From NCBI RefSeq assembly GCF_015694345.1, contig NZ_JADQDC010000003.1, positions 186,001-250,000 of the forward strand: a stretch of 64,000 nucleotides of DNA. Direction: 5' to 3'. This document shows, one piece after another, positions 1 through 11,692 of the stretch. Numbering within the stretch: the first letter of the stretch is position 1; each line of letters starts with the position of its first letter. Position numbers and translations under genes: made by a program. The notes beneath the pieces were generated by a model. The model ran no database searches. It was not told where the DNA came from and worked only from the letters and a program-made list of their open reading frames with translations. Origin of the DNA: Novosphingobium jiangmenense (lineage in GTDB: Bacteria; Pseudomonadota; Alphaproteobacteria; Sphingomonadales; Sphingomonadaceae).

Positions 1-50
1 GGCTCTATGTTTTCCACCGGAACGCGGACGGTGCCCATCACGATGATCAT
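1..50 (-). CDS. Antibiotic-biosynthesis/quinol monooxygenase-like protein, N-terminus only
   Basis: Only the first 16 codons are in the window. They read M-I-I-V-M-G-T-V-R-V-P-V-E-N-I-E, which resembles the first beta strand of small ABM-domain (putative quinol monooxygenase) proteins. The start codon shares one base with the stop codon of the gshA-like gene upstream (TGATG), so the two are translationally coupled in one minus-strand operon. The family call rests on very few residues and is tentative. Confidence 0.5.
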   Translation of the reverse strand, partial: MIIVMGTVRVPVENIE

Positions 51-1423
51 CAGAAGCTCTTCTCGCCATAGATGCGCGAAAGGTCGCCGCCCCATTCGCC
101 GTGGTAAAGGTCCAGCAGGCGTTCGGCGGGCGTCTTGCCCGAAGAGACGATCTCGTCGAGCGGCTGGAGATAGCCCGTCTCGTTGTCGCCCGCCTCGTTC
201 AGCTGCGCCCGCGCAGCCAAGCCCGAGCGCGAGATTGCCAGCACTTCGGCGGCCACATCGCGCAACTTGCCCCCACCCGGCAGCGTCGCGTCCAGCCCCA
301 GCTTGGGCACTTCGGCGCGCAGCCTTTCGCGAGCTTCCATGTCCCAGCCCTTGACCAGATCCCACGCCGCGTCGAGCGCGCCCTGATCATAGAGCAGGCC
401 GACCCACAGCGCCGGCAGCGCGCAGATCCGGCTCCACGGCCCGCCATCGGCCCCGCGCATCTCGAGGAACGATTTCAGCCGCACTTCGGGGAAGGCGGTG
501 GATAGATGGTCGTTCCAGTCTGCCAGCGTCGGCTTCTCGCCCGGCAGCACCGAAAGCTTGCCCTCCAGGAAATCCCGGAACGAAAGCCCTGCCGCATCGA
601 TGTACTTGCCCTCGCGGAACACGAAATACATCGGCACGTCGAGCATGTACTCGACATAGCGCTCGTACCCGAACCCTTCCTCGAACACGAACGACAGCAT
701 CCCCGTGCGCGCCGGGTCTGTATCGGTCCAGATATGGCTGCGATAGGAAAGGAACCCGTTGGGCTTGCCCTCAAGGAACGGCGAATTGGCAAACAGCGCG
801 GTCGCCAGCGGCTGCAGCGCAAGGCTCACGCGGAACTTCTGCACCATGTCCGCCTCGCTCGAATAATCGAGGTTGGTCTGGATCGTGCAAGTCCGCAGCA
901 TCATGTCGAGGCCCATCGTTCCCACGCGCGGCATGTGCCGCAGCATGATGTCGTAGCGGCCCTTGGGCATGATCGGCAGTTCTTCGCGGGTCTTGTCCGG
1001 CCACAGCCCCATGCCGAGGTAGGCCAGGCCCAGCTTGTCGCCGATCGTCTTGACCTGCGCCAGATGCCGCCCGGTCTCCGCACAGGTCTGGTGCAGGTTG
1101 ACCAGCGGCGCGCCCGAAAGCTCAAGCTGTCCGGCAGGCTCAAGGCTCACCGCGCCATCGGGGCCCGACATCGCGATGACGTTGTCGCCCTCGATGATCG
1201 GCTCCCAACCGTATTCGGTCAGCGCATCGAGCAGGTCCCTGATGCCGCCCTGCTCGGCATACGAGGGCGCACGGCGATCTTCTGTGCGATAGACGAATTT
1301 CTCGTGCTCGGTGCCGATCCGCCAGTTTTCCTTGGGCTTTTCGCCCTTCTGCATCGGCACCACGAGCATGTCGCGGCTTTCGATTACGGGATCGTTGCTA
1401 TTTGAAACCTGCCGCGTGCTCAT
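50..1423 (-). CDS. gshA: Glutamate-cysteine ligase, plant/alphaproteobacterial type
   Basis: This enzyme makes gamma-glutamylcysteine from glutamate, cysteine and ATP, the first step of glutathione synthesis in the cytosol. The 457-residue length fits the GCS2-like plant/proteobacterial family, which is unrelated in length to the enterobacterial enzyme. Conserved blocks are visible at IGTEHEKF (residues 36-43), SLEPAGQLELSG (93-104) and the run around MPKGRYDIML (152-161) leading to the TCTIQTNLDYSSE segment (178-190), all typical of the active site. It lies 112 bp downstream of rsmE on the same strand and its stop overlaps the next start by one base. The start chosen is the ATG at 1423, the only one that keeps the full N-terminus. 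Confidence 0.93.
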   Translation of the reverse strand: MSTRQVSNSNDPVIESRDMLVVPMQKGEKPKENWRIGTEHEKFVYRTEDRRAPSYAEQGGIRDLLDALTEYGWEPIIEGDNVIAMSGPDGAVSLEPAGQLELSGAPLVNLHQTCAETGRHLAQVKTIGDKLGLAYLGMGLWPDKTREELPIMPKGRYDIMLRHMPRVGTMGLDMMLRTCTIQTNLDYSSEADMVQKFRVSLALQPLATALFANSPFLEGKPNGFLSYRSHIWTDTDPARTGMLSFVFEEGFGYERYVEYMLDVPMYFVFREGKYIDAAGLSFRDFLEGKLSVLPGEKPTLADWNDHLSTAFPEVRLKSFLEMRGADGGPWSRICALPALWVGLLYDQGALDAAWDLVKGWDMEARERLRAEVPKLGLDATLPGGGKLRDVAAEVLAISRSGLAARAQLNEAGDNETGYLQPLDEIVSSGKTPAERLLDLYHGEWGGDLSRIYGEKSF

Positions 1424-1534
1424 GCCCGCATCCGTTAATGGGCAGGACAGCTTTTAGCCAGCCAAATTGTAGCACTTCACCTGCAAGGCATTGTTGCCGG
1501 GTGGAAACGAAATGGCGACAAGTCGGGTCTGTTG

Positions 1535-2284
1535 CTACCCGAACCAGTCGCCCTGCATGCCCATCCACAGCGCAGTTCCGGCAACGGCCGCCGTCTCGCC
1601 GCGAAGGATGCGCGGCCCCAGCGACAGCGCGACTGCAGCCGGATGCGCGCGCACCAGTGCCCGCTCCGCCTCGTCAAAGCCGCCCTCCGGTCCGATCAGC
1701 AAGGCCGCCGGACCGTCGTTGATCGAAAAGGCCACCGCCGCCGGCAAGCCGCCGTTCTCGTCGGCAAAGAACAGCGTGCGCCCCTCCGGCCAGTCGCGCA
1801 GCAGCTGCTCCAGCTTCACCGTCTCGCCCAGATCGGGCAGCGCTGTCCGCGCGCACTGTTCTGCCGCTTCGGTCATGATCGTCAGCGCCCGCTCGGGATT
1901 GAGCTTGTCAGCCACGCACCGCCGCGTCACCACCGGCACGACCTTGGCCGCGCCCAGTTCCGTCGCCTTTTCCAGCACCAGATCGAAGTTCGGCTTCTTC
2001 AGCAAAGCGGCGCAGAGCCAGAAATCCGGCACCTCCTCGCGCTCGCGCAACCGTCGCTCGATCTCGACAACGACCTCGCGCTTGCCCGCCTCGACCACCC
2101 GCGCGACCCACTCGCCAGTCCGGTTGTCGCAAACGATCACCGCATCGCCCGGGCCGACGCGCATCACCTTGCCCAGATAATGCGCCTGGTTCCCTTCGAT
2201 CGGCAGATGCAATCCATCGCTCAACGTCGTATCGACGAAGAGACGCGGCGCGGACTTGGGAGGCCAGGCAGGAGTCGCAGTCAT
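1535..2284 (-). CDS. rsmE: 16S rRNA (uracil-1498-N3) methyltransferase
   Basis: The product is an RsmE-family SPOUT methyltransferase that methylates U1498 of 16S rRNA using S-adenosylmethionine. The 249 residues match the family length. An N-terminal PUA-like beta domain comes first, then the SPOUT knot with the diagnostic motifs GPEGG (198-202) and LGPRILRGETA (222-232). The gene starts 46 bp from the divergent ubiA, so both promoters lie in that short gap, and it precedes gshA on the minus strand. Confidence 0.95.
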   Translation of the reverse strand: MTATPAWPPKSAPRLFVDTTLSDGLHLPIEGNQAHYLGKVMRVGPGDAVIVCDNRTGEWVARVVEAGKREVVVEIERRLREREEVPDFWLCAALLKKPNFDLVLEKATELGAAKVVPVVTRRCVADKLNPERALTIMTEAAEQCARTALPDLGETVKLEQLLRDWPEGRTLFFADENGGLPAAVAFSINDGPAALLIGPEGGFDEAERALVRAHPAAVALSLGPRILRGETAAVAGTALWMGMQGDWFG

Positions 2285-2330
2285 CCACCCCGCCTAGCGC
2301 GGATTATGTCTTTCGTTAAGAGTTTGTCAT

Positions 2331-3245
2331 GTGACTCCTGCCAGTTCCGAAACAATCGTCCCCGACAGCGAACACAAGGGCCTCGTCGCCAGCCTGCCGC
2401 AGCCGTGGCGCAACCTTGCCCTGCTCGCGCGGTTCGATCGCCCGATCGGCTGGTGGCTGTTGTTCTGGCCCTGCGCCTGGGGGCTGTTCCTCGGCGGCGG
2501 CACTTCGCGCTGGGGCATTCTCGCCTGGATGCTGCTTGGAGCCATCGCCATGCGCGGGGCCGGGTGCGTCTATAATGACATCGTTGATGCCGATCTCGAT
2601 GCCCGCGTCGCCCGCACCGCTGCCCGTCCGATCGCCAGCGGCGCAACCAGCAAACGCACGGCATGGATCTGGCTGCTGACGCTCTGCGCAGTCGGTCTCG
2701 TCGTCCTGCTGCAACTGCGCTGGGAGGCACAACTTGTCGCGCTCGGCAGCCTTGCCCTCGTCGCCGCCTATCCCTTCATGAAGCGCATCACCGGCTGGCC
2801 GCAGGCATGGCTTGGTCTGGTCTTCACGTGGGGCGCCCCGGTCGGCTGGGTCGAAGCGAACGGGTTTGACCGCCTCGCCCCCCTCGGCCTGCTCTATGCC
2901 GGATGCTGGGCCTGGTGCATGGCCTATGACACGATCTATGCCCTGCAGGACCGCGAGGATGACGCCATGGTTGGTATCGGCTCCTCCGCGCTGTCCTTCG
3001 GCAGACACGTTCGCGCGGGCGTCGGCGGGCTCTATGCGATGGCGGTATTGTGCTGGGCTGGCGCAATCTGGCTTGTCCGCGCCGATCCGCTGGCCCTGCT
3101 CGCGCTTGCGCCGATCGCGCTCCATCTCCTGTGGCAGGTCGCCACCCTCAAGGAAGACGGCATCGATCCGCTCGCCAAGTTCCGCTCGAACCGCTTTGCC
3201 GGCCTGCTGATGGCTGCCGCAGCCTACGTCGTCGGCGCGGCCTGA
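2331..3245 (+). CDS. ubiA: 4-hydroxybenzoate polyprenyltransferase
   Basis: UbiA attaches the polyprenyl tail to 4-hydroxybenzoate in ubiquinone synthesis and sits in the inner membrane. Both aspartate-rich prenyl-diphosphate/magnesium motifs are present: NDIVDADLD (82-90) and DTIYALQDREDD (200-211). Several hydrophobic helices separate and follow them. The start is a GTG at 2331; the overlapping ATG at 2329 is followed at once by a stop. The 3' end overlaps the convergent acetyltransferase gene by 22 bp. Confidence 0.94.
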   Translation: MTPASSETIVPDSEHKGLVASLPQPWRNLALLARFDRPIGWWLLFWPCAWGLFLGGGTSRWGILAWMLLGAIAMRGAGCVYNDIVDADLDARVARTAARPIASGATSKRTAWIWLLTLCAVGLVVLLQLRWEAQLVALGSLALVAAYPFMKRITGWPQAWLGLVFTWGAPVGWVEANGFDRLAPLGLLYAGCWAWCMAYDTIYALQDREDDAMVGIGSSALSFGRHVRAGVGGLYAMAVLCWAGAIWLVRADPLALLALAPIALHLLWQVATLKEDGIDPLAKFRSNRFAGLLMAAAAYVVGAA

Positions 3246-4069
3246 GTGCCGAACAGCGCTTCGTGCCGAGCCTCGATGGCCGGCCACAAGTCCGCCGCTT
3301 CAGGCACGTCGAGCAGGAACAGGTCCCGCAAGATTTCGACCAGTTCCGTGGCCGAAGCCACCTCACGCCGCTCCTCGCCCTTGGTGGTGATGACTGACAT
3401 CACCTTGCCTCTGAGCATCAGATAACGGCCCCCATCGCGCCGCTGCGCCGTCAGGTTCTGCACGAATACCGAAGCGGGATCGTGCGCCTGCCAGCGGCAG
3501 AGCCGGGAAAGCTGCTCTTCGTCGGCGGGTTCGGGCTTGAAATCATAGGACATCGCCGTCGGCCCAAGGCTTACGGAAACCCGCCACATCGCATCGTCCG
3601 TCCGGCCCAGCGAAACCGGCAAGGGATCATGTGTCCACGCCCCTTGCTCAAGCGGAACCGGTGCGCCCAGCCAACTGCCGAACCCGGCATCCACGAGCAT
3701 CTGGCCACCGCACTGCACCAGCAGGCACAAATGCGAGCCCATGGACTCGTCACCCCGCATCTGCCGCATCACGCCCGCGCTCATCCGCGTCACGTCGAAG
3801 CCGATTGCCGCCAGCGCTGCGCCCAGCACGCCATTGTGTTCATAGCACCACCCGCCGCGCCTCGCCTCCACCAGCTTGGCGAAGGCTGCGGCAGGATCGG
3901 TCGTCAGCGGGCGGCCCAGCTGCACGTCGAGGTTCTCGAACGGGATCGCGCGCACGTGGGCGCGCACCATGGCGTCGAGCGTCGGCAGATCGGCGCGCAC
4001 GGCCTCGGCAAGGCCGATGCGCGCGAGATAGGCCGCAAGCTGCGCAGGCGAAAGCGGCTCAACCGCCAT
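3224..4069 (-). CDS. nat: Arylamine N-acetyltransferase
   Basis: The protein transfers acetyl from acetyl-CoA to aromatic amines or hydrazines. With the start at 4069 it has 281 residues and the complete NAT catalytic triad: Cys75 in RGGWCYEHN, His113 in GSHLCLL and Asp127 in VDAGFG. A longer reading frame exists upstream, but its extra residues are antisense to the VOC gene and look non-coding; the ATG at 4069 overlaps the VOC stop by 11 bp, as expected for coupled genes. The two genes form a short operon read away from soxR, which suggests a role in handling redox-active aromatics. The physiological substrate is unknown. Confidence 0.9.
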   Translation of the reverse strand: MAVEPLSPAQLAAYLARIGLAEAVRADLPTLDAMVRAHVRAIPFENLDVQLGRPLTTDPAAAFAKLVEARRGGWCYEHNGVLGAALAAIGFDVTRMSAGVMRQMRGDESMGSHLCLLVQCGGQMLVDAGFGSWLGAPVPLEQGAWTHDPLPVSLGRTDDAMWRVSVSLGPTAMSYDFKPEPADEEQLSRLCRWQAHDPASVFVQNLTAQRRDGGRYLMLRGKVMSVITTKGEERREVASATELVEILRDLFLLDVPEAADLWPAIEARHEALFGTQAAPTT

Positions 4070-4436
4070 AACTGACCACCTCGAACTCGATCCCGTCCCA
4101 ATCGTAGAAATAGAACCGCTTGCCCGGCTCGTAATCGGCATGATTGAACGGTTCGAGCCCTGCAGCAATCACGATCTGCTCGGCCACGTCCAGATCGTCC
4201 ACTTCGATGCCAACATGCTGCAACGGCACCCCTTTCTCGAAGCGTCCGGAGTGTCCACCGGGAGGCGCATAGAACACGATGTACTGGCTCTCGGTGCCGA
4301 GATGGATCGAGAATCCGTCATCGATCGCTGGCCCGCGCCAGCGCTCGTGCCACCCGCACAGCTTGGTGAAGAACGCGGCTGACCGCTCGGCATCGCTGAC
4401 GCGGATGTTGACGTGTTCAAGGCGGGCTGCAGGCAT
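4059..4436 (-). CDS. VOC-superfamily (glyoxalase/dioxygenase fold) protein
   Basis: This 125-residue single-module vicinal-oxygen-chelate protein keeps plausible metal ligands His8, His74 and Glu119, the last in the DWDGIEFEV strand. Family members include glyoxalases, fosfomycin-type resistance proteins and dioxygenases; the sequence alone does not separate these. It is the first gene of a two-gene operon with an arylamine N-acetyltransferase. Its promoter contains a perfect SoxR box, so induction by redox-cycling compounds is predicted. A purine-rich ribosome site (AGAAGGA) lies about 10 nt before the ATG. Confidence 0.85.
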   Translation of the reverse strand: MPAARLEHVNIRVSDAERSAAFFTKLCGWHERWRGPAIDDGFSIHLGTESQYIVFYAPPGGHSGRFEKGVPLQHVGIEVDDLDVAEQIVIAAGLEPFNHADYEPGKRFYFYDWDGIEFEVVSYGG

Positions 4437-4479
4437 CGGTGGTGTCCTTCTATGGCACTGATTTGATTCGATGCTTGCG

Positions 4480-4510
4480 AATCTGCAACCTCAAGTTAAC
4501 TTGAGGTCAA
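4480..4510 (-). promoter_or_regulatory. SoxR box within the VOC-NAT operon promoter
   Basis: Positions 4489-4506 read CCTCAAGTTAACTTGAGG, a perfect 18-bp palindrome identical to the SoxR-binding core of the Escherichia coli soxS promoter. On the minus strand it sits in soxS geometry: -35 TTGACC at 4510-4505, a 19-bp spacer, and a weak -10 CAGATT at 4485-4480. The overlong spacer is the hallmark of MerR-family activation by DNA distortion. On the plus strand the flanking hexamers are poor, so the VOC gene is the predicted activated target and soxR may be autorepressed. Confidence 0.88.
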
Positions 4511-4535
4511 GCGGAAATCGCGGAGTCGCAGGACC

Positions 4536-4982
4536 TTGGCCATCAGTCGTAACGATCTCATCCCGATCGGCACCCTCGCGCGCCGCACCGGCCTCGCCGT
4601 CAGCGCCATCCGCTATTACGAGGATCGCGGCCTCGTCACCTCGATCCGCACCGGCGGAAACCAGCGGCGGTTCCTCCGTTCCGACATCCGCCGCCTCAGC
4701 TTCGTCCAGATCGCGCAGAAGCTTGGCCTCGGCCTGGCGGAGATCGAACGCGAACTCGCCGCCCTGCCACAGGGCCGCACCCCCAATGTGATGGACTGGC
4801 AGCGCATAAGTCGTTCCTTGCGCAAGGAAATCGACAGCCGCATCCAGCTTCTCACGCGCACCCGCAACAAGCTCGACGAATGCATCGGCTGCGGCTGCCT
4901 CAGCCTCGAACGCTGCGCCCTGTACAACAAGGATGACCGCGCCGCCGCAGGCGGGCCGGGGCCTAGGTATGTGCTGGATTAG
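4536..4982 (+). CDS. soxR: Redox-sensitive transcriptional activator SoxR
   Basis: SoxR is a MerR-family dimer whose [2Fe-2S] cluster is oxidised by superoxide or redox-cycling drugs to switch on target promoters. The N-terminal winged helix (IGTLARRTGLAVSAIRYYED, residues 11-30) and the four cluster cysteines C116, C119, C121 and C127 in CIGCGCLSLERC are intact. The protein has 148 residues. The only in-frame start after the upstream stop is a TTG at 4536; an AGGA lies very close to it, so translation may be weak. There is no soxS nearby. The 3' end overlaps smc by 4 bp, convergently. Confidence 0.95.
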   Translation: MAISRNDLIPIGTLARRTGLAVSAIRYYEDRGLVTSIRTGGNQRRFLRSDIRRLSFVQIAQKLGLGLAEIERELAALPQGRTPNVMDWQRISRSLRKEIDSRIQLLTRTRNKLDECIGCGCLSLERCALYNKDDRAAAGGPGPRYVLD

Positions 4983-7900
4983 CTCGCGTTCTCAAGCAGT
5001 TCGACTGCGCCGCCAAGGTCCACGCTGACAAGGCGCGATACGCCGCGTTCCACCATCGTCACACCGAACAGGCGGTGCATGCGGCTCATGGTCACCGCGT
5101 TGTGGGTGACGATCAGGTAGCGGGTGCGGGTTTCCTGCACCATCGCGTCGAGCAGGTCGCAAAAGCGCTCGATGTTGGCGTCGTCGAGCGGCGCGTCGAC
5201 TTCGTCGAGTACACAGATCGGGGCGGGGTTGGTCAGGAACAGCGCGAAGATCAGTGCGACGGCGGTCAACGCCTGCTCGCCGCCGGAGAGAAGAGTCAAG
5301 GATTGCAGGCGCTTGCCCGGTGGTTGCGCGAAGATTTCGAGGCCGGCCTCGAGCGGATCGTCGGAATCGACCAGCGCCAGGTGCGCCTCGCCCCCACCGA
5401 ACAAGCGACTGAAAAGACGGCGGAAATGGCCGTCGACGGCCTCGAACGCCGCCCGCAGCCGTTCGCGTCCCTCGCGGTTGAGGTTGCCGATCGAGCCTCT
5501 AAGCCTATGAACCGCCTCGGTTAACTCGGCCTGCTCCGCCACAGAGGTGCCCAGCTTCTCCTCGGCATCCTTCAATTCATCCGCGGCGACAAGATTCACC
5601 GGCCCGATCCGCTCCCGCTCCGCCGAAAGACGATCCATCGCCGCCGACTCTTCGGTAGCAGCGGCGACGTCTGCGGAAGCGAATTCGAAGCGCTCGGGCA
5701 GGAGGGGGGGCGGGCACTGGAATCGCTCGCCGGAGATGGCAGCCATTTCCTGTCGGCGGGCGTCTTCGTTCTCGGCGCGGGCGGCTGCTCCGGCACGGGC
5801 CTCGCGGGCGGTCGCGAGGGTCTCGTTTGCTGCCGAGAGTTTTGCCTCTGCCTGCGAGAGTTCGCCTTCCGCATCGGAGAGTTGCCGCTCTGCCTCGGAG
5901 AGTTGGATTGTCAGGCGCGCGCGGATTCCTTCGCCCTGCTCGATCTCGGAAATCAGTCCAGCAGGCTTCGCGGCAGAGATCGCGCGCTCGGTTTCAAGCT
6001 CCTCGCGCCGCCCGGTCATCTCGGCCAAACGCTTGGCCGCATCGCCGGCGCGGGCCTGCCAGGCCCGGATATCGCCTTTGAGGCCGGCCAGACGCTCCTT
6101 GCCCACCGCAATCTGCTGCTCGAGCGCGGCGGACGCGGCACTGGCGGATTGCAGCGTCACGCGCGCCGCATCATTTCGCGCCCGCGCCGCATCGAGCGCC
6201 GCCCGGCCAGCTGCCGGATCGGGCAGGGTGCTGCGCTTGTCCTCGGCGGCAGTGACGTCAGCCTGAGCCGCAACACGTTGATCTGCCAGCTCTTCCTGCG
6301 CCCGCGCCAATTCCGCCTTGCGCTGCTCAAGCCGCGCCCGCGCAGCCTCTGCGGCATCCAGGGCACGCAGCGCCATGCGCTCTGCATCGGCGGCGGCAGA
6401 GAGCGCGCGCTCCACTTGCGAAAGCTCGGCCTGCACCGAGGAGAGGCTCGCGCGGACCTCCTCCTGCGCTGCTTCGGCGATGGCAACGGCTTCGCGCCGC
6501 TCGGGCAAAAGCGCCTGCAATTCCGCCAGCCGGTTCTCGGCTTCGAGCGCCGCCGCCTCGGCTGCGCCTTCGCCGCGCGCGACGAAACCGTCCCAGCGGC
6601 GCAAGTGTCCGGCCTTGGTCACCATCCATTCGCCGTGGTTCAAAGTCTGGCCTTCGTCGGCTTCGACAACGCGCACAAGCGCAAGGCGTGCAGACAGTTC
6701 CGGCGGGCATTGCGGCACATGGTGGGCGAGGGAATCGCCCAGTGGTTCAGGGACTGGCGCCCCGGTCCAGAAACGCCCCTCCGCACCTGCCGGAGCCGCG
6801 CCGACGGGAGCCGAAGCATCGCGCCCCAGCACGGCGGCAAGGGCACGCTCATACCCCGGCGCAGCGCGGGTTCCGGCGATGGCGGACTGGCCCAAGCCCT
6901 TGGCAGAGCGTGCTTTCTCCCGTGCCGCCTTGTCGCGGGCGAGCGCATCGGCTTCCCGCTCGATCCCGGCGAGATCGGCGCGCGCCTGCGCCAGCGTGTT
7001 GCTGGCCGCATCGCGGCGCGAGGACAGGTCTTCGCGTTCGGCGGTGAGCGTGGCGCGCCGCTCTTCGGCAGAGGCGATGGCCTCGGCAGCAGCGGCACGC
7101 TTTGCCTCAGCTTCGGCGATCTGCGCTGCGGGATCGGCTTCGCGGGCGAGCACATCGGCCTGCTGGGCCAGTCGCGCAGCATCGGCATCAACGCGCGCAA
7201 GTCGTTGGCGGGCAGCGGAAACTGCTGCTTCGGCAACACGCCATTCCGCGTCGATCCCCGCCTGCTCGGCCACGCGCTGGGCCAGCGCGACTTCGGCTGC
7301 GCGCGCGGCGCGGTCAGCGTCGTCAACCGCGGCTGCAAGGGTCGGGCGACGTTCGCTGTCTGCGGCAAGCGATGATTCCGCAGCGGTGAGGTCCTGCTCC
7401 AGCTTCGCCATCGCAGCGGCGGCATCCTCGGTCAGCCGGTCGGCGCTGGCGCGGTCTTCCTCGATCCGAGAAAGCTGCCGGTCGATGTCCTTGACCCGCT
7501 GCTCGGCCGCTTCAAGCTGTGCGGTGAGCGAGGCCATGCGCTGGCCGTGGGCGGCGGCGTCCTGCCGGCGGTCGAACAGTTCGTCCCGCGCTTCGGCGAG
7601 GGCTGCAGCCGCCTTGTGCTGCGCTTTCTGCGCCGCTTGCGCGAGATCGGTAGCAGTCTTCACCGCTTCCTCGGCGGCGACAGCCTGCTTGCGGGCCGCA
7701 TCGGCCGCAGCGGCGGCATCGCGCCAGCGGGCGAAGACGAGGCGGGCCTCGGCGAGGCGAATCTTCTCGCTGACCGCCTTGTAGCGCTCGGCCGCGCGGG
7801 CTTGGCGGCGCAACGTGGCAATCTGGCTTTCGAGGCCCGAGAGCATGTCCTCGAGCCGGGCCAGATTCGCTTCGGTCGCGCGCAGCTTCTGTTCGGCATC

Positions 7901-8419
7901 GCGGCGGCGGACGTGGAGACCCGCGATCCCCGCAGCCTCTTCCAGCATCATCCGGCGTTCGGCAGGCTTGGCCGCAATGACCGCAGCAATGCGGCCCTGA
8001 CTGACCAGTGCCGGACTGTGCGCGCCGGTAGCGGCATCGGCGAAAACGAGCGACACGTCCTTGGCGCGGACATCCTTGCCGTTGACGCGGTAGGCGCTGC
8101 CTGCGCCGCGTTCGATGCGGCGGACGACTTCGAGCTCTGCGCCGAACGGCCCGTCAGGATCGGTTTCGGCGGTGAGCAGGACTTCGGCGAAGGCGCGGGC
8201 CGGGCGCGTGGCGGTCCCGGCGAAGATCACGTCTTCCATCCCGCCGCCGCGCATGGACTTCGGCGAGCTTTCGCCCATGACCCAGCGGATGGCTTCGAGC
8301 AGGTTGGACTTGCCGCAGCCGTTGGGACCGACGACGCCGGTGAGGCCGGGTTCGATGCGCAGTTCGGCAGGTTCGACGAAGCTCTTGAAACCGGATAGTT
8401 TCAAGCGCTTGAACTGCAC
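4979..8419 (-). CDS. smc: Chromosome partition protein SMC
   Basis: SMC is the ATPase core of the bacterial condensin that compacts and segregates chromosomes. The 1146-residue protein has an N-terminal Walker A GPNGCGKS (31-38), long alanine/glutamate-rich coiled coils, a central hinge near residues 505-620, and the C-terminal signature LSGGEQ (1044-1049) with Walker B VLDEVDAP (1070-1077). The hinge is short and carries the PGYERALAAVLG block typical of alphaproteobacterial SMCs rather than the Bacillus-type hinge. The gene lies 38 bp after a DsbA-like gene on the same strand. Confidence 0.96.
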   Translation of the reverse strand: MQFKRLKLSGFKSFVEPAELRIEPGLTGVVGPNGCGKSNLLEAIRWVMGESSPKSMRGGGMEDVIFAGTATRPARAFAEVLLTAETDPDGPFGAELEVVRRIERGAGSAYRVNGKDVRAKDVSLVFADAATGAHSPALVSQGRIAAVIAAKPAERRMMLEEAAGIAGLHVRRRDAEQKLRATEANLARLEDMLSGLESQIATLRRQARAAERYKAVSEKIRLAEARLVFARWRDAAAAADAARKQAVAAEEAVKTATDLAQAAQKAQHKAAAALAEARDELFDRRQDAAAHGQRMASLTAQLEAAEQRVKDIDRQLSRIEEDRASADRLTEDAAAAMAKLEQDLTAAESSLAADSERRPTLAAAVDDADRAARAAEVALAQRVAEQAGIDAEWRVAEAAVSAARQRLARVDADAARLAQQADVLAREADPAAQIAEAEAKRAAAAEAIASAEERRATLTAEREDLSSRRDAASNTLAQARADLAGIEREADALARDKAAREKARSAKGLGQSAIAGTRAAPGYERALAAVLGRDASAPVGAAPAGAEGRFWTGAPVPEPLGDSLAHHVPQCPPELSARLALVRVVEADEGQTLNHGEWMVTKAGHLRRWDGFVARGEGAAEAAALEAENRLAELQALLPERREAVAIAEAAQEEVRASLSSVQAELSQVERALSAAADAERMALRALDAAEAARARLEQRKAELARAQEELADQRVAAQADVTAAEDKRSTLPDPAAGRAALDAARARNDAARVTLQSASAASAALEQQIAVGKERLAGLKGDIRAWQARAGDAAKRLAEMTGRREELETERAISAAKPAGLISEIEQGEGIRARLTIQLSEAERQLSDAEGELSQAEAKLSAANETLATAREARAGAAARAENEDARRQEMAAISGERFQCPPPLLPERFEFASADVAAATEESAAMDRLSAERERIGPVNLVAADELKDAEEKLGTSVAEQAELTEAVHRLRGSIGNLNREGRERLRAAFEAVDGHFRRLFSRLFGGGEAHLALVDSDDPLEAGLEIFAQPPGKRLQSLTLLSGGEQALTAVALIFALFLTNPAPICVLDEVDAPLDDANIERFCDLLDAMVQETRTRYLIVTHNAVTMSRMHRLFGVTMVERGVSRLVSVDLGGAVELLENAS

Positions 8420-8457
8420 CGATCAGGCCCCCCGACCCCGTCCTGCCCCCGGCGGCC

Positions 8458-9207
8458 TTAGCGGGCGCCGGCCTTCTGCAGCATGGGTTCGAGTTCCTGC
8501 CAGCTGGCAACGCCGGTCTTGCTGCCGTTGAGGAAGAACGTCGGCGTGCCGGTGATGTCGAATTCCTTGCTCCACTGCTCGTTCACGGTAGCAAGTTTGG
8601 TCGCCTTGGCGCTGTCCGCCAGGCACGAGGAACCTTGGGCTGCAGCAATCCCGCGCGAGGCGAAGAATTCGCTCATCCCGCCAAGCTGGGCGATACCCGC
8701 AAAGCGCTTGTCGGCGGGCAGGTTCTGGATCTGCTGGAAGGCGGCATCGTCCTTCTGCAGGTTGGTGAACATGTTCGGCTGCCATTCCCAGAACTGTTCG
8801 GACAGCGGGATTACCGCCTCCGGGCTTCCGCAAGTTGCGAGCAGCACGGCCGGCATGTCGAGAGCGTTCAGCAGGAACAGGCGCAGTTCGTAGGAGACGC
8901 GGCCCGAGGCGACGTAATCGTCACGCAGCTTGGGGAAGCCTTCCTTCGAGAACTGGGCGCAGTGCGAGCACGACAGCGCGCCGAATTCGACCAGCTTGAT
9001 CGGCGCATTGGGATTGCCCATCAGGTAGCCGCCTTCAGGGGTGACCGAGAAGGTTTCCGTCCACGACTTGCCAGCGGGCGCCGGAACCTTGGCAATCGGC
9101 TCGGCGCTTGCGACGTCGCCCCCGGCGGCGGCGTCCTTCTTGTCGCAGGCGGCGAGACCCAGCGTCAGGGGAAGGGTGGCAAGCAGGAGCGCGCGGGCGA
9201 GTTTCAT
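8458..9207 (-). CDS. DsbA-family thiol-disulfide oxidoreductase, probable lipoprotein
   Basis: This 249-residue exported thioredoxin-fold protein should work on periplasmic disulfides. A signal peptide ends in a lipobox-like LAAC with Cys21 as the lipidated residue. The redox motif is CSHC (80-83) and a cis-proline loop TGTPTF follows near the C-terminus. A second DsbA-like protein is encoded 90 bp upstream on the same strand, and the two probably arose by duplication. No DsbB partner is in the window. Confidence 0.88.
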   Translation of the reverse strand: MKLARALLLATLPLTLGLAACDKKDAAAGGDVASAEPIAKVPAPAGKSWTETFSVTPEGGYLMGNPNAPIKLVEFGALSCSHCAQFSKEGFPKLRDDYVASGRVSYELRLFLLNALDMPAVLLATCGSPEAVIPLSEQFWEWQPNMFTNLQKDDAAFQQIQNLPADKRFAGIAQLGGMSEFFASRGIAAAQGSSCLADSAKATKLATVNEQWSKEFDITGTPTFFLNGSKTGVASWQELEPMLQKAGAR

Positions 9208-9297
9208 CGTCTGGATATTCCCGTTTTCTGGCGGTTTGGAGGGGACGCTAGCGGATTGTTGCCGGGGTTTGAAGGGGCGTCGCTCCGGGATTGTGGA

Positions 9298-10017
9298 TCA
9301 GTTCATCCGCGCGAGGATCTGCGGGCGCAGCGAATCCCAGTCATGCGTGCCGGCAAGCAGGATGCCATCGATCATGAAGCTGGGGGTGCCGGTGACACCG
9401 AGCTTTTCCGCTGCATCATCGGTCTGCTGGGCGAGCTTCTTGGCGAGAGCCTCGTTCGCAAGGCAGCGGTCCATTGCCTGCCGGTCCATGCCGCGTGCGG
9501 CCATGAAGTCATAAAGCTTGAAGTCGCTGGCGATGGCGCGGGTGCGGCTGGCGAAGGCGCCAGTGGTCCAGCGCTGGCGTTGTGCCTCGGTCGAATTGGT
9601 GAGCGGGCCGATCCATTGGGGCTGCAGGCGCATGAATGCGGTATGCAGCTGGAAAAATCGGTTGGCCGGCACGCAATTGGTGATCAGCGCCACGGTCATG
9701 TCGACCGGATCGCGCACGAAGTTGCGCACTTCGACCGCGCCCTTGCCCGGAGCGATCATGCCGATCTTGAGCTGGCCTTCGGACTCGGTTTCGAAGTGCG
9801 AGCAGTGCGGGCAAGTGTAACTGACGAACTCGATCACGCGCAGTTTGGCGGCAGGATTGCCGAGCACGTGATGGCCCTCAGGCGTGACCGAACCGGTGAC
9901 GGCCCAGTTCAGACCGCCGGCGGGGCGCGGTGCGGGCTTTCTCGCAGCCTGACCCGATGCCCCTGACGCCACGAGCGCGGTGGCCGCAATCGCTGCTGCA
10001 ATGAACTTGCGAATCAT
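9298..10017 (-). CDS. DsbA-family thiol-disulfide oxidoreductase, periplasmic
   Basis: The 239-residue protein has a cleavable signal peptide (about residues 1-22), a thioredoxin domain with active-site CPHC (69-72), an inserted helical domain and the cis-proline loop TGTPSF. CPHC is the classic strongly oxidising DsbA motif. Its ATG overlaps the dciA stop by 4 bp (ATGA), so it is translated together with that gene. It resembles the lipoprotein paralogue just downstream, especially in the VTPEGxxxxGNP segment before the redox motif. Confidence 0.9.
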   Translation of the reverse strand: MIRKFIAAAIAATALVASGASGQAARKPAPRPAGGLNWAVTGSVTPEGHHVLGNPAAKLRVIEFVSYTCPHCSHFETESEGQLKIGMIAPGKGAVEVRNFVRDPVDMTVALITNCVPANRFFQLHTAFMRLQPQWIGPLTNSTEAQRQRWTTGAFASRTRAIASDFKLYDFMAARGMDRQAMDRCLANEALAKKLAQQTDDAAEKLGVTGTPSFMIDGILLAGTHDWDSLRPQILARMN

Positions 10018-10613
10018 CCGATCTTCTTCCCCCCGGTTGCACTGTCCAGACTGCGCGCCAGCGATTCCAGCACCGTGCGCAATTCGGGATCGCCGATATC
10101 GCGCAGCGAATCCCCCAATTCCATCGGTATCGGTTTGAGCGAGGGAGGCGCCGCGCGCGGGGCCTCCTTGGGCTTTGGTGCCTGAACCGCGCCTTGCCGA
10201 ATCTTCACCTTGGCCACGGCATTGTAGCCGAAAAAGCGGTTCACCCGGTCGATGATCTCGGGCGTGACATGCTGGATCAGCGGCGCATGGGCAGGGCTGA
10301 CGACAAGTTGCAGGATGCCTTCCGATTTCTCGCCGGGCGGGAAGCGGATCGATTCCGGCATGCAGTGGCGCGCGTGGCGTTCGCCGACGATTTCGGGCCA
10401 GCGGGTGACGACGCTGGATTGCACGAAGCCGAAGCGGCGGAACGCGGTGCGGCCGATGGCGGGCATGAGATCGGCGATCTGGCGGGCCTCGCCGCCGCGC
10501 GGACGCTCATAGGGTTTCGGGGCGTAGAGCTTGCCTGCCTCGGCCTTCGTCGACCGGGAGCTCTTGCGTTTCGGCGCGTCCGAAGGGGTGCTTTCCATAT
10601 CGCTTCGCGCCAT
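10014..10613 (-). CDS. dciA: DciA/DUF721-family protein, probable DnaB helicase loader
   Basis: DUF721 proteins (DciA) help load the replicative helicase in bacteria that lack DnaC. The conserved DUF721 core spans about residues 50-130 (RWPEIVGERHARHCMPESI and the following beta strands), after a basic, probably disordered N-terminus rich in Lys, Arg and Ser. The start is uncertain between the ATG at 10613 and that at 10598; the longer frame to 10673 would run into the divergent mutY and is unlikely. The stop overlaps the next DsbA-like start. Confidence 0.82.
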   Translation of the reverse strand: MARSDMESTPSDAPKRKSSRSTKAEAGKLYAPKPYERPRGGEARQIADLMPAIGRTAFRRFGFVQSSVVTRWPEIVGERHARHCMPESIRFPPGEKSEGILQLVVSPAHAPLIQHVTPEIIDRVNRFFGYNAVAKVKIRQGAVQAPKPKEAPRAAPPSLKPIPMELGDSLRDIGDPELRTVLESLARSLDSATGGKKIG

Positions 10614-10627
10614 GCCATAGGTGCGCG

Positions 10628-11692
10628 ATGCAAGCCAGAGAGGAAGCCGCAAAGTCGTTCGATCCGGAGGCAATCGCCCCGCTGCTGCTGGCGTGGTACG
10701 ATGCCAACGCGCGGCGCCTGCCGTGGCGGCGCCTTCCCGGCGAAGAGCGGCAGGATCCGTACAAGGTCTGGCTGTCCGAGGTCATGCTGCAGCAGACGAC
10801 GGTGGCGGCGGTCGGGCCGTACTTTGCGAAGTTCACGCAACGCTGGCCGAAGGTGAGCGATCTGGCGGCGGCGGACGATGCCGATGTGATGGCGGCCTGG
10901 GCGGGGCTCGGGTATTATGCGCGGGCGCGCAATCTGCTGGCCTGTGCGCGGGCGGTGGCGGCGCGGGGCGGTGCCTTTCCCGATACGGAAGCGGGTTTGC
11001 GCGGGTTGCCGGGGCTGGGCGAGTATACCGCTGCTGCAGTGGCGGCGATTGCCTTCGGACAGCGGGCGGTGGTGGTCGATGCCAATGTCGAGCGGGTGGT
11101 GTCGAGGCTCTTCGCGATTGACGAGCCGCTGCCTGCAGGCAAGGCGGCGATCCGCTTTGCTGCCGGACAGGTGACCCCCGAAGAGCGCGCCGGGGATTTC
11201 GCGCAAGGGATGATGGACCTTGGCGCGACGATCTGCACGGCGCGGAGCCCGCGCTGCATGCTGTGCCCGTTGCGCGAACTTTGCCGGGGCTATGCCGAGG
11301 GTTCGCCCGAGCGGTTGCCGGTTAAGGCGGCGAAGAAAGCCAAGCCGGTGCGCGCAGGCCGCGCCTACTGGATCGAGCGCGATGGCGAGGTGCTGCTGGT
11401 GCGCAGGCCGGGGCGGGGAATGCTCGGCGGGATGCGGGCGCTGCCGGACGATGGCTGGTCAGCCAAGGGCGATGGTCCCGACGGGCTTGAGGGGGAGTGG
11501 CGCCCTGCCGGCGTTGTGCGCCACGGCTTCACGCATTTCGATCTCGAATTGCAATTGATGCTTCCGGTTCAGGCACAAGCGGTTAGTCTGCCCGAGGGAG
11601 AATGGTGGCCGGTCGAGACGATCGAGGCCGCCGGATTGCCGACCGTGTTCGCCAAGGCGGCGCGGCTGGCGGTCGCTGGAAGGACTGACTGA
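10628..11692 (+). CDS. mutY: A/G-specific adenine DNA glycosylase
   Basis: MutY removes adenine mispaired with 8-oxoguanine. All catalytic features are present in the 354-residue protein: Glu51 in SEVMLQQT, the helix-hairpin-helix LPGLGEYT (127-134), catalytic Asp151 in VDANVERV, and the [4Fe-4S] cysteines C203, C210, C213 and C219 with C-x6-C-x2-C-x5-C spacing. A Nudix-like C-terminal domain that recognises 8-oxoG follows. The gene diverges from dciA and is 3 bp from the next gene, so it heads an operon that ends with the FrnE-like gene. Confidence 0.96.
   Translation: MQAREEAAKSFDPEAIAPLLLAWYDANARRLPWRRLPGEERQDPYKVWLSEVMLQQTTVAAVGPYFAKFTQRWPKVSDLAAADDADVMAAWAGLGYYARARNLLACARAVAARGGAFPDTEAGLRGLPGLGEYTAAAVAAIAFGQRAVVVDANVERVVSRLFAIDEPLPAGKAAIRFAAGQVTPEERAGDFAQGMMDLGATICTARSPRCMLCPLRELCRGYAEGSPERLPVKAAKKAKPVRAGRAYWIERDGEVLLVRRPGRGMLGGMRALPDDGWSAKGDGPDGLEGEWRPAGVVRHGFTHFDLELQLMLPVQAQAVSLPEGEWWPVETIEAAGLPTVFAKAARLAVAGRTD

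Follow-up and report, generated by a model that had tools for sequence, protein, structure and literature searches.

A predicted SoxR-activated promoter facing a VOC-superfamily gene in Novosphingobium jiangmenense, with a candidate CcrM/GcrA methylation motif downstream

A 64-kb stretch of the Novosphingobium jiangmenense genome (contig NZ_JADQDC010000003.1, positions 186,001 to 250,000), referred to as the window, contains soxR and a VOC-superfamily gene in divergent orientation. Between the two genes lies a perfect SoxR operator, which is placed within a promoter directed to the VOC gene. Behind the VOC gene is an arylamine N-acetyltransferase (NAT) gene, whose first 11 bp overlap the end of the VOC gene. 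The features of the locus are listed below in window coordinates. Labels such as L002 are our own handles for loci.

3224-4069, minus strand: NAT, 281 aa, PF00797, with Cys75/His113/Asp127
4059-4436, minus strand: VOC-superfamily protein, 125 aa, PF00903, with conserved His8/His74/Glu119
4464-4470, plus strand: YGAKTCG (as TGATTCG), a predicted CcrM methylation/GcrA motif at about +4 to +10 from the predicted VOC start
4479-4483, strandless: extra GANTC overlapping the predicted -10, likewise in L034 and L035
4480-4485, minus strand: predicted -10 element CAGATT, 19 bp from the -35
4489-4506, strandless: SoxR operator, perfect 18-bp palindrome CCTCAAGTTAACTTGAGG, identical to the E. coli soxS operator
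4505-4510, minus strand: -35 element TTGACC of the VOC promoter, sharing 2 bp with the palindrome
4536-4982, plus strand: soxR, 148 aa, TTG start, four-cysteine [2Fe-2S] motif, divergent from VOC

The SoxR protein scores 182.5 bits against TIGR01950 (cut-off 116.9), and its closest solved structure is E. coli SoxR (2zhg). A preliminary description of this DNA had called the SoxR cysteines intact, and all four are present. They follow the pattern C-X2-C-X-C-X5-C (C116, C119, C121, and C127), which is found in 198/198 rows of at least 50% identity, duplicates counted. The same description had identified the palindrome with the E. coli soxS operator and read TTGACC-19-CAGATT as facing the VOC gene, not a soxS gene. 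Matching against the E. coli soxR-soxS intergenic site bore out the identity, the promoter elements are in the sequence, and the 30-bp interval given for them, 4480-4510, is right. The palindrome is inside the 19-bp spacer between the -35 and the predicted -10, as expected of a SoxR-activated promoter of the MerR type. The VOC transcript is predicted to start near 4473, and the promoter including the downstream motif spans about 4464-4510. In the relative L007, TATAAT is found at the -10 place.

The locus shares with E. coli soxR-soxS the operator, the divergent soxR, the 19-bp spacer, and a -35 overlapping the palindrome. The flanks differ, being TTTACC-19-TATACT in E. coli and TTGACC-19-CAGATT on the minus strand of the window. 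The target in the window is a VOC gene (with NAT) rather than a second regulator, and YGAKTCG follows the box. The operator is the sole match to CCTCAAGTTAACTTGAGG at three or fewer mismatches in the 64-kb window, with none in 100 shuffles. The whole genome (4.08 Mb, 31 contigs) holds one exact box and one copy with three mismatches (L002). The L002 copy sits, by eye, in a murE/murF-like coding sequence and was therefore taken as chance. A chance origin of the palindrome itself was ruled out by the shuffles, the genome scan, and the conservation among relatives. We also considered a wider SoxR regulon in this genome, but three genome-wide patterns (the box, a core with up to three mismatches, and a looser core with up to one) gave, at the settings used, only this promoter. 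A plain sigma70 scan of 3200-5000 with 16-18 bp spacers found no promoter; shuffles give only 0.3, so this result has little weight.

We examined the conservation of the locus from the SoxR side and from the VOC side. In the order, 103 of 246 sampled genomes have SoxR above the cut-off. Not counting that of the window, the SoxR-side set has 104 loci, of which 30 were taken with 1.5-kb flanks and 74 with about 3 kb. The VOC-side set comprises the best 80 of 470 relatives in named genomes; these are the closest relatives, so its figures are biased upward, and the two sets have genomes in common. A VOC relative is present in 93 of the 104 SoxR loci (90 at 45% identity or more), and it is divergent from soxR in all 93. 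A box with up to four mismatches lies within 300 bp upstream of VOC in 79 of these 93 (up to two mismatches in 40, exact in 3; the exact box of L008, just past 300 bp, was left out). On the VOC side, all 80 loci have a divergent soxR, and the box is found with up to four mismatches in 78, up to three in 69, and exactly in 5. In shuffled upstream regions (n = 865), the best match has five mismatches and occurs in 4. Most loci exceeding four mismatches keep a promoter recognisable by eye; L156 is without one.

The direction of the promoter was assessed in 114 non-redundant promoters (below 70% mutual identity) out of 157 contexts, which were chosen on the box letters and not on the flanks. TTGA precedes the box in 114/114, and the five positions after the box approximate TTGCA (T 108, T 101, G 104, C 94, A 114), the invariant A at box+5 falling in the predicted -10. 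Seen from the soxR side, the same place reads GCAA rather than TTGA. Due to the complete conservation of TTGA, the promoter is read as directed towards VOC, which backs the direction given in the preliminary description. As features of the sequence, the box and its direction are near certain, and the conserved unit, judged from both sets of loci, is soxR-box-VOC.

The same promoters bear on the explanation that the box mainly serves soxR autoregulation, with VOC as a bystander under another promoter. The box adjoins soxR, the E. coli SoxR site also overlaps soxR's own promoter, and a box with two to four mismatches is kept in 7/7 VOC-less loci that retain soxR. However, the VOC-side TTGA of the 114 VOC-bearing promoters is found in only 3/7 of these VOC-less loci. 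In L216, moreover, soxR and VOC lie apart and have a SoxR box each (at 1131 and 2096, with two and one mismatches). We consider autoregulation as the main role very unlikely. Decay of the box after VOC loss, as counted by mismatches, was rejected, since VOC-bearing loci often have two to four mismatches as well. A better sign of such decay is that 4/7 VOC-less loci have lost TTGA.

The unit also occurs beyond the order. In a class sample of 289 genomes, 27 have SoxR above the cut-off, including the window's genome and three others of its family. Outside the order, the families f11, f22, f29, f87, and f153 also have SoxRs of the VOC type, which are 55-66% identical to that of the window and are accompanied by a VOC gene and a box of up to five mismatches. 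Among the matches listed, the other SoxRs of the class face, by eye, transporter, reductase or other genes. A SoxR tree was made from 129 sequences and 146 columns by a quick method with SH-aLRT support only; L206, L209, and L214 were dropped as duplicates. The label "VOC partner" requires 4 changes on this tree versus 27.4 in shuffles (0/500 as low), and the branch of VOC-type SoxRs has a support of 96. The VOC-linked SoxRs form one clade that extends to other orders. Within this branch, L026, L174, and L176 keep soxR and a box with three mismatches, and no VOC was found there. They are probable VOC losses, and their boxes are probably relict operators.

The VOC protein was placed in the superfamily by its paired beta-alpha-beta-beta-beta fold together with the Pfam match. 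Glyoxalase I (GloA) was rejected at 26.8 bits against a curated cut-off of 165. The metal ligands of GloA are H, E, H, and E; position 56 of the VOC protein, which we infer to be equivalent to a GloA Glu ligand, is Tyr in 175/186 rows. FosA-type fosfomycin resistance, whose ligands resemble His/His/Glu, was also rejected (Fos_GSH, 20.0 bits against a cut-off of 180). In the available part of PMC5749703, the VOC enzymes TxeA, ToxM, and TflA degrade toxoflavin with Glu/His/Glu or His/Glu/Glu ligands. The window protein, set beside them by description and not by sequence, differs in its His/His/Glu ligands.

NAT scores 157.4 bits against PF00797 (cut-off 22.8), and C75, H113, and D127 align with PDB 1w6f. 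The preliminary description had treated VOC and NAT as a paired unit, which did not hold among relatives: NAT is behind VOC in 9/80 VOC-side loci and in 1/104 SoxR-side loci. A PF00797 match is present in 58/119 genomes of the genus, and we surveyed 50 of those 58 besides the window. The order soxR-VOC-NAT is found in 7, at least 5 of which are already in the VOC-side 80, and soxR-box-NAT without VOC in 4 (L253, L254, L256, and L257). Five genomes have smc-NAT-ubiA without soxR and VOC. In the other 34, the NATs have 30-42% identity, and the stretch read contains neither soxR nor VOC. In the window, the genes that bound the smc-ubiA address are the following.

2331-3245, plus strand: ubiA, the convergent flank of the conserved address
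4979-8419, minus strand: smc, the other flank

Within the flank covered, 72/80 VOC-side loci have a convergent ubiA following VOC or NAT, and 56/80 have smc. The smc and ubiA neighbours place the states with and without soxR and VOC at one address, from which we infer that VOC and soxR were lost there.

These gene orders also speak to the proposal that the operon exists for NAT and that SoxR is induced by the same redox-cycling aromatic amine that NAT acetylates. NAT overlaps VOC in the window and follows the SoxR box directly in the four genomes that lack VOC, and the Cys-His-Asp triad is kept in 20/20 NATs behind VOC or box or at the smc-ubiA address. On the other hand, NAT is rare behind VOC, stands without soxR and VOC in the five genomes, and has only distant relatives away from both genes in the 34. 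An operon built around NAT is unlikely in our judgement. NAT is optional and persists without VOC or without both soxR and VOC; there is therefore little support for equating the inducer with the NAT substrate, which is a guess. Judging by its distribution, NAT is a passenger that SoxR can drive, and the circuit does not exist on its account. The likelier agent is the VOC protein, whose His-His-Glu triad is invariant. In L265 (G626), the NAT match is split in two pieces.

Downstream of the box, the VOC promoter carries a motif that the preliminary description missed. GATTC after the box was first spotted by eye in the locus contexts and then counted. GANTC occurs within 50 bp after the box in 83/114 promoters, compared with 21.2 (maximum 32) in 200 shuffles and with 14/114 in 45 bp on the soxR side. 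Its flanks are restricted, with Y before it in 79/80 and G after it in 74/80, giving YGAKTCG. In either orientation, YGAKTCG is present in 77/114 promoters, or in 79/116 with L007 and L008, which joined the set after the motif was seen in them. Shuffles of the 116 gave 4.5 (maximum 10), and the soxR side has it in 1/116. A looser promoter pattern matched 167 of 170 unique upstreams (it missed L013, L074, and L180 despite their alike appearance), and 102 of the 167 carry YGAKTCG. The motif is 18-26 from the box in 99/102, with an SD of 3.0. Its distance to the start codon has an SD of 20.8, excluding a leader or ribosome site tied to the start codon. Besides the conserved GANTC at 4465-4469, the window has a further one at 4523-4527 in the soxR leader.

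The GcrA motif was reportedly described by Haakonsen et al. in 2015. In the accessible portion of PMC7987155 (on Haakonsen 2015), YGAKTCG is the extended motif proposed to mark GcrA-activated promoters of Caulobacter, where GcrA targets are defined by GANTC within 40 bp of the start. GcrA/CcrM promoters such as Caulobacter mipZ and ctrA P1, as presented in parts of PMC3667746, PMC4287350, and PMC7987155, resemble the window promoter in having a YGAKTCG-form GANTC within 40 bp of the start, which in the window is a predicted one. Those promoters are best known for cell-cycle genes, whereas the window site lies past the predicted start and next to the promoter of a stress regulator. The GANTC tally in PMC4287350, in the part available, was confined to the region upstream of the start. 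When located past the start, a site may work in another way, perhaps through promoter escape or the soxR promoter on the opposite strand.

YGAKTCG could instead be an element unrelated to methylation. It might bind an unknown protein, act as a downstream promoter element, or belong to the soxR promoter. In the last case, the motif would be upstream of a possible -35 TTGCC on the other strand. The motif adjoins CAAG, whose conservation is partial (A at box+14 in 79/114 and at box+15 in 76/114) and which is CTTG on the other strand, a possible soxR -35. Furthermore, GATTC is preferred over other GANTC forms (73/80), and motif-less lineages still have GcrA and CcrM-type proteins. However, the published consensus fits in either orientation (83 forward, 17 reverse, and 2 both among the 102). 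The motif is also gone where VOC was lost though soxR remains: within the genus it is in 0/6 VOC-less loci versus 32/44 (Fisher p 0.0012, uncorrected for kinship). Over all loci that lost VOC it is in 0/7, L254 having a plain GANTC further on. We regard a non-methylation role as plausible but on the improbable side. A GcrA/CcrM input to the VOC promoter, as predicted from the motif, is given slightly less than even confidence.

SoxR binds its operator in both redox states, and E. coli SoxR with an oxidised [2Fe-2S] cluster untwists the 19-bp spacer for RNA polymerase. By analogy with E. coli SoxR, redox-cycling compounds would oxidise the window's SoxR, which would untwist the spacer so that RNA polymerase can use the VOC promoter. 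VOC, plus the overlapping NAT in this genome, would then be switched on, and such activation of VOC by SoxR is very probable. Carrying a His-His-Glu metal triad, the VOC protein might modify or break the redox-active compound, in the way that toxoflavin is degraded by VOC enzymes, and we see about an even chance that it disposes of the inducer. NAT would be an accessory that caps arylamine products. YGAKTCG just past the start may be methylated by CcrM and read by GcrA, providing a replication-linked second input. Overall, a one-promoter SoxR regulon for VOC with a predicted methylation input is a probable reading of the locus. More tentatively, and with the balance somewhat against it, the Novosphingobium/Erythrobacter family may have a one-target SoxR circuit wired to the CcrM/GcrA clock, in which VOC answers both redox-cycling poisons and the passage of the replication fork. 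The preliminary description was right on the observation and the regulator and too narrow on the operon, and is thus partly supported.

Several observations weigh against this picture. The -10 CAGATT is weak. No such VOC was found within the stretch read in 11/104 SoxR loci, 8 of which belong to another SoxR type of 43-49% identity. Outside the window's family, 16/16 VOC promoters lack YGAKTCG (L007 and L008 are not counted among the 16), and so do 18/19 loci of genus g7. GcrA and a CcrM-type C-terminal domain are present in the window's genome, and such proteins were found in 28/28 other genomes, with and without the motif. The soxR-box-VOC unit therefore manages without YGAKTCG, and the presence or absence of GcrA/CcrM was rejected as an explanation of where the motif occurs. 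In the available part of PMC7987155, GcrA-controlled promoters of Brevundimonas have plain GANTC only, and the extended motif was not recovered. As a separate observation, the genus g7 loci (L114, L123, and L130, for example) share another stretch upstream of the -35, by eye GATCACAGCGATAGCG-like.

SoxR boxes are said to have been surveyed by Dietrich et al. in 2008. Pseudomonas has a small SoxR regulon without SoxS, and the regulon predicted for the window's genome is alike in this respect. It is likewise similar to Streptomyces coelicolor, whose SoxS-independent SoxR regulon comprises six genes in the part of PMC4146615 available; its main text nowhere mentions glyoxalase, dioxygenase, or acetyltransferase, and in the window's genome the searches found one target promoter. 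We recognised no description of a SoxR-VOC-NAT unit, or of GANTC at a SoxR promoter, in the open-licence literature; among the papers listed, PMC13210998 names SoxR together with a single "VOC family", and PMC8545394 names SoxR together with CcrM. If the methylation input is real, this would be, to our knowledge, the first promoter to join SoxR redox sensing with adenine-methylation control. If the proposed role is true, VOC would be a new family of enzymes that destroy redox-cyclers. An alphaproteobacterial SoxR subfamily gains a conserved, testable target that is a probable enzyme and not an efflux pump or a second regulator. Since SoxR responds to redox-cyclers, the VOC substrate can be sought among SoxR inducers. 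If the methylation motif works, it would show that chromosome replication and a stress defence can be linked, a matter relevant to why single cells differ in their tolerance of redox-cyclers.

Some further observations concern the surroundings of the locus. Rfam and anti-phage model scans gave no match. A stretch of an Azospirillum plasmid matches the intergenic DNA; the genes annotated on either side of it are unrelated, and the annotation shows no soxR there. L007 and L008 hold a second, distant SoxR-VOC pair (VOC 29-32% identical) with an exact soxS box (L007 1974-1991, L008 1956-1973); the pair adjoins an HslU-like gene by eye and has YGAKTCG on the opposite strand at box+14. Two thioredoxin-like open reading frames, assigned by eye, are at 8458-9207 and 9298-10017, with no NCBIfam match at 1e-20. 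The neighbourhood at 50-11692 is rich in redox genes, including glutamate-cysteine ligase (50-1423), ubiA, soxR, and a mutY-like gene (10628-11692), and a VOC protein of such a fold might use glutathione. The nearest named relative locus, which also has an exact box, is that of N. subterraneum DSM 12447 (L035), with SoxR 97%, VOC 88%, and NAT 83% identical.
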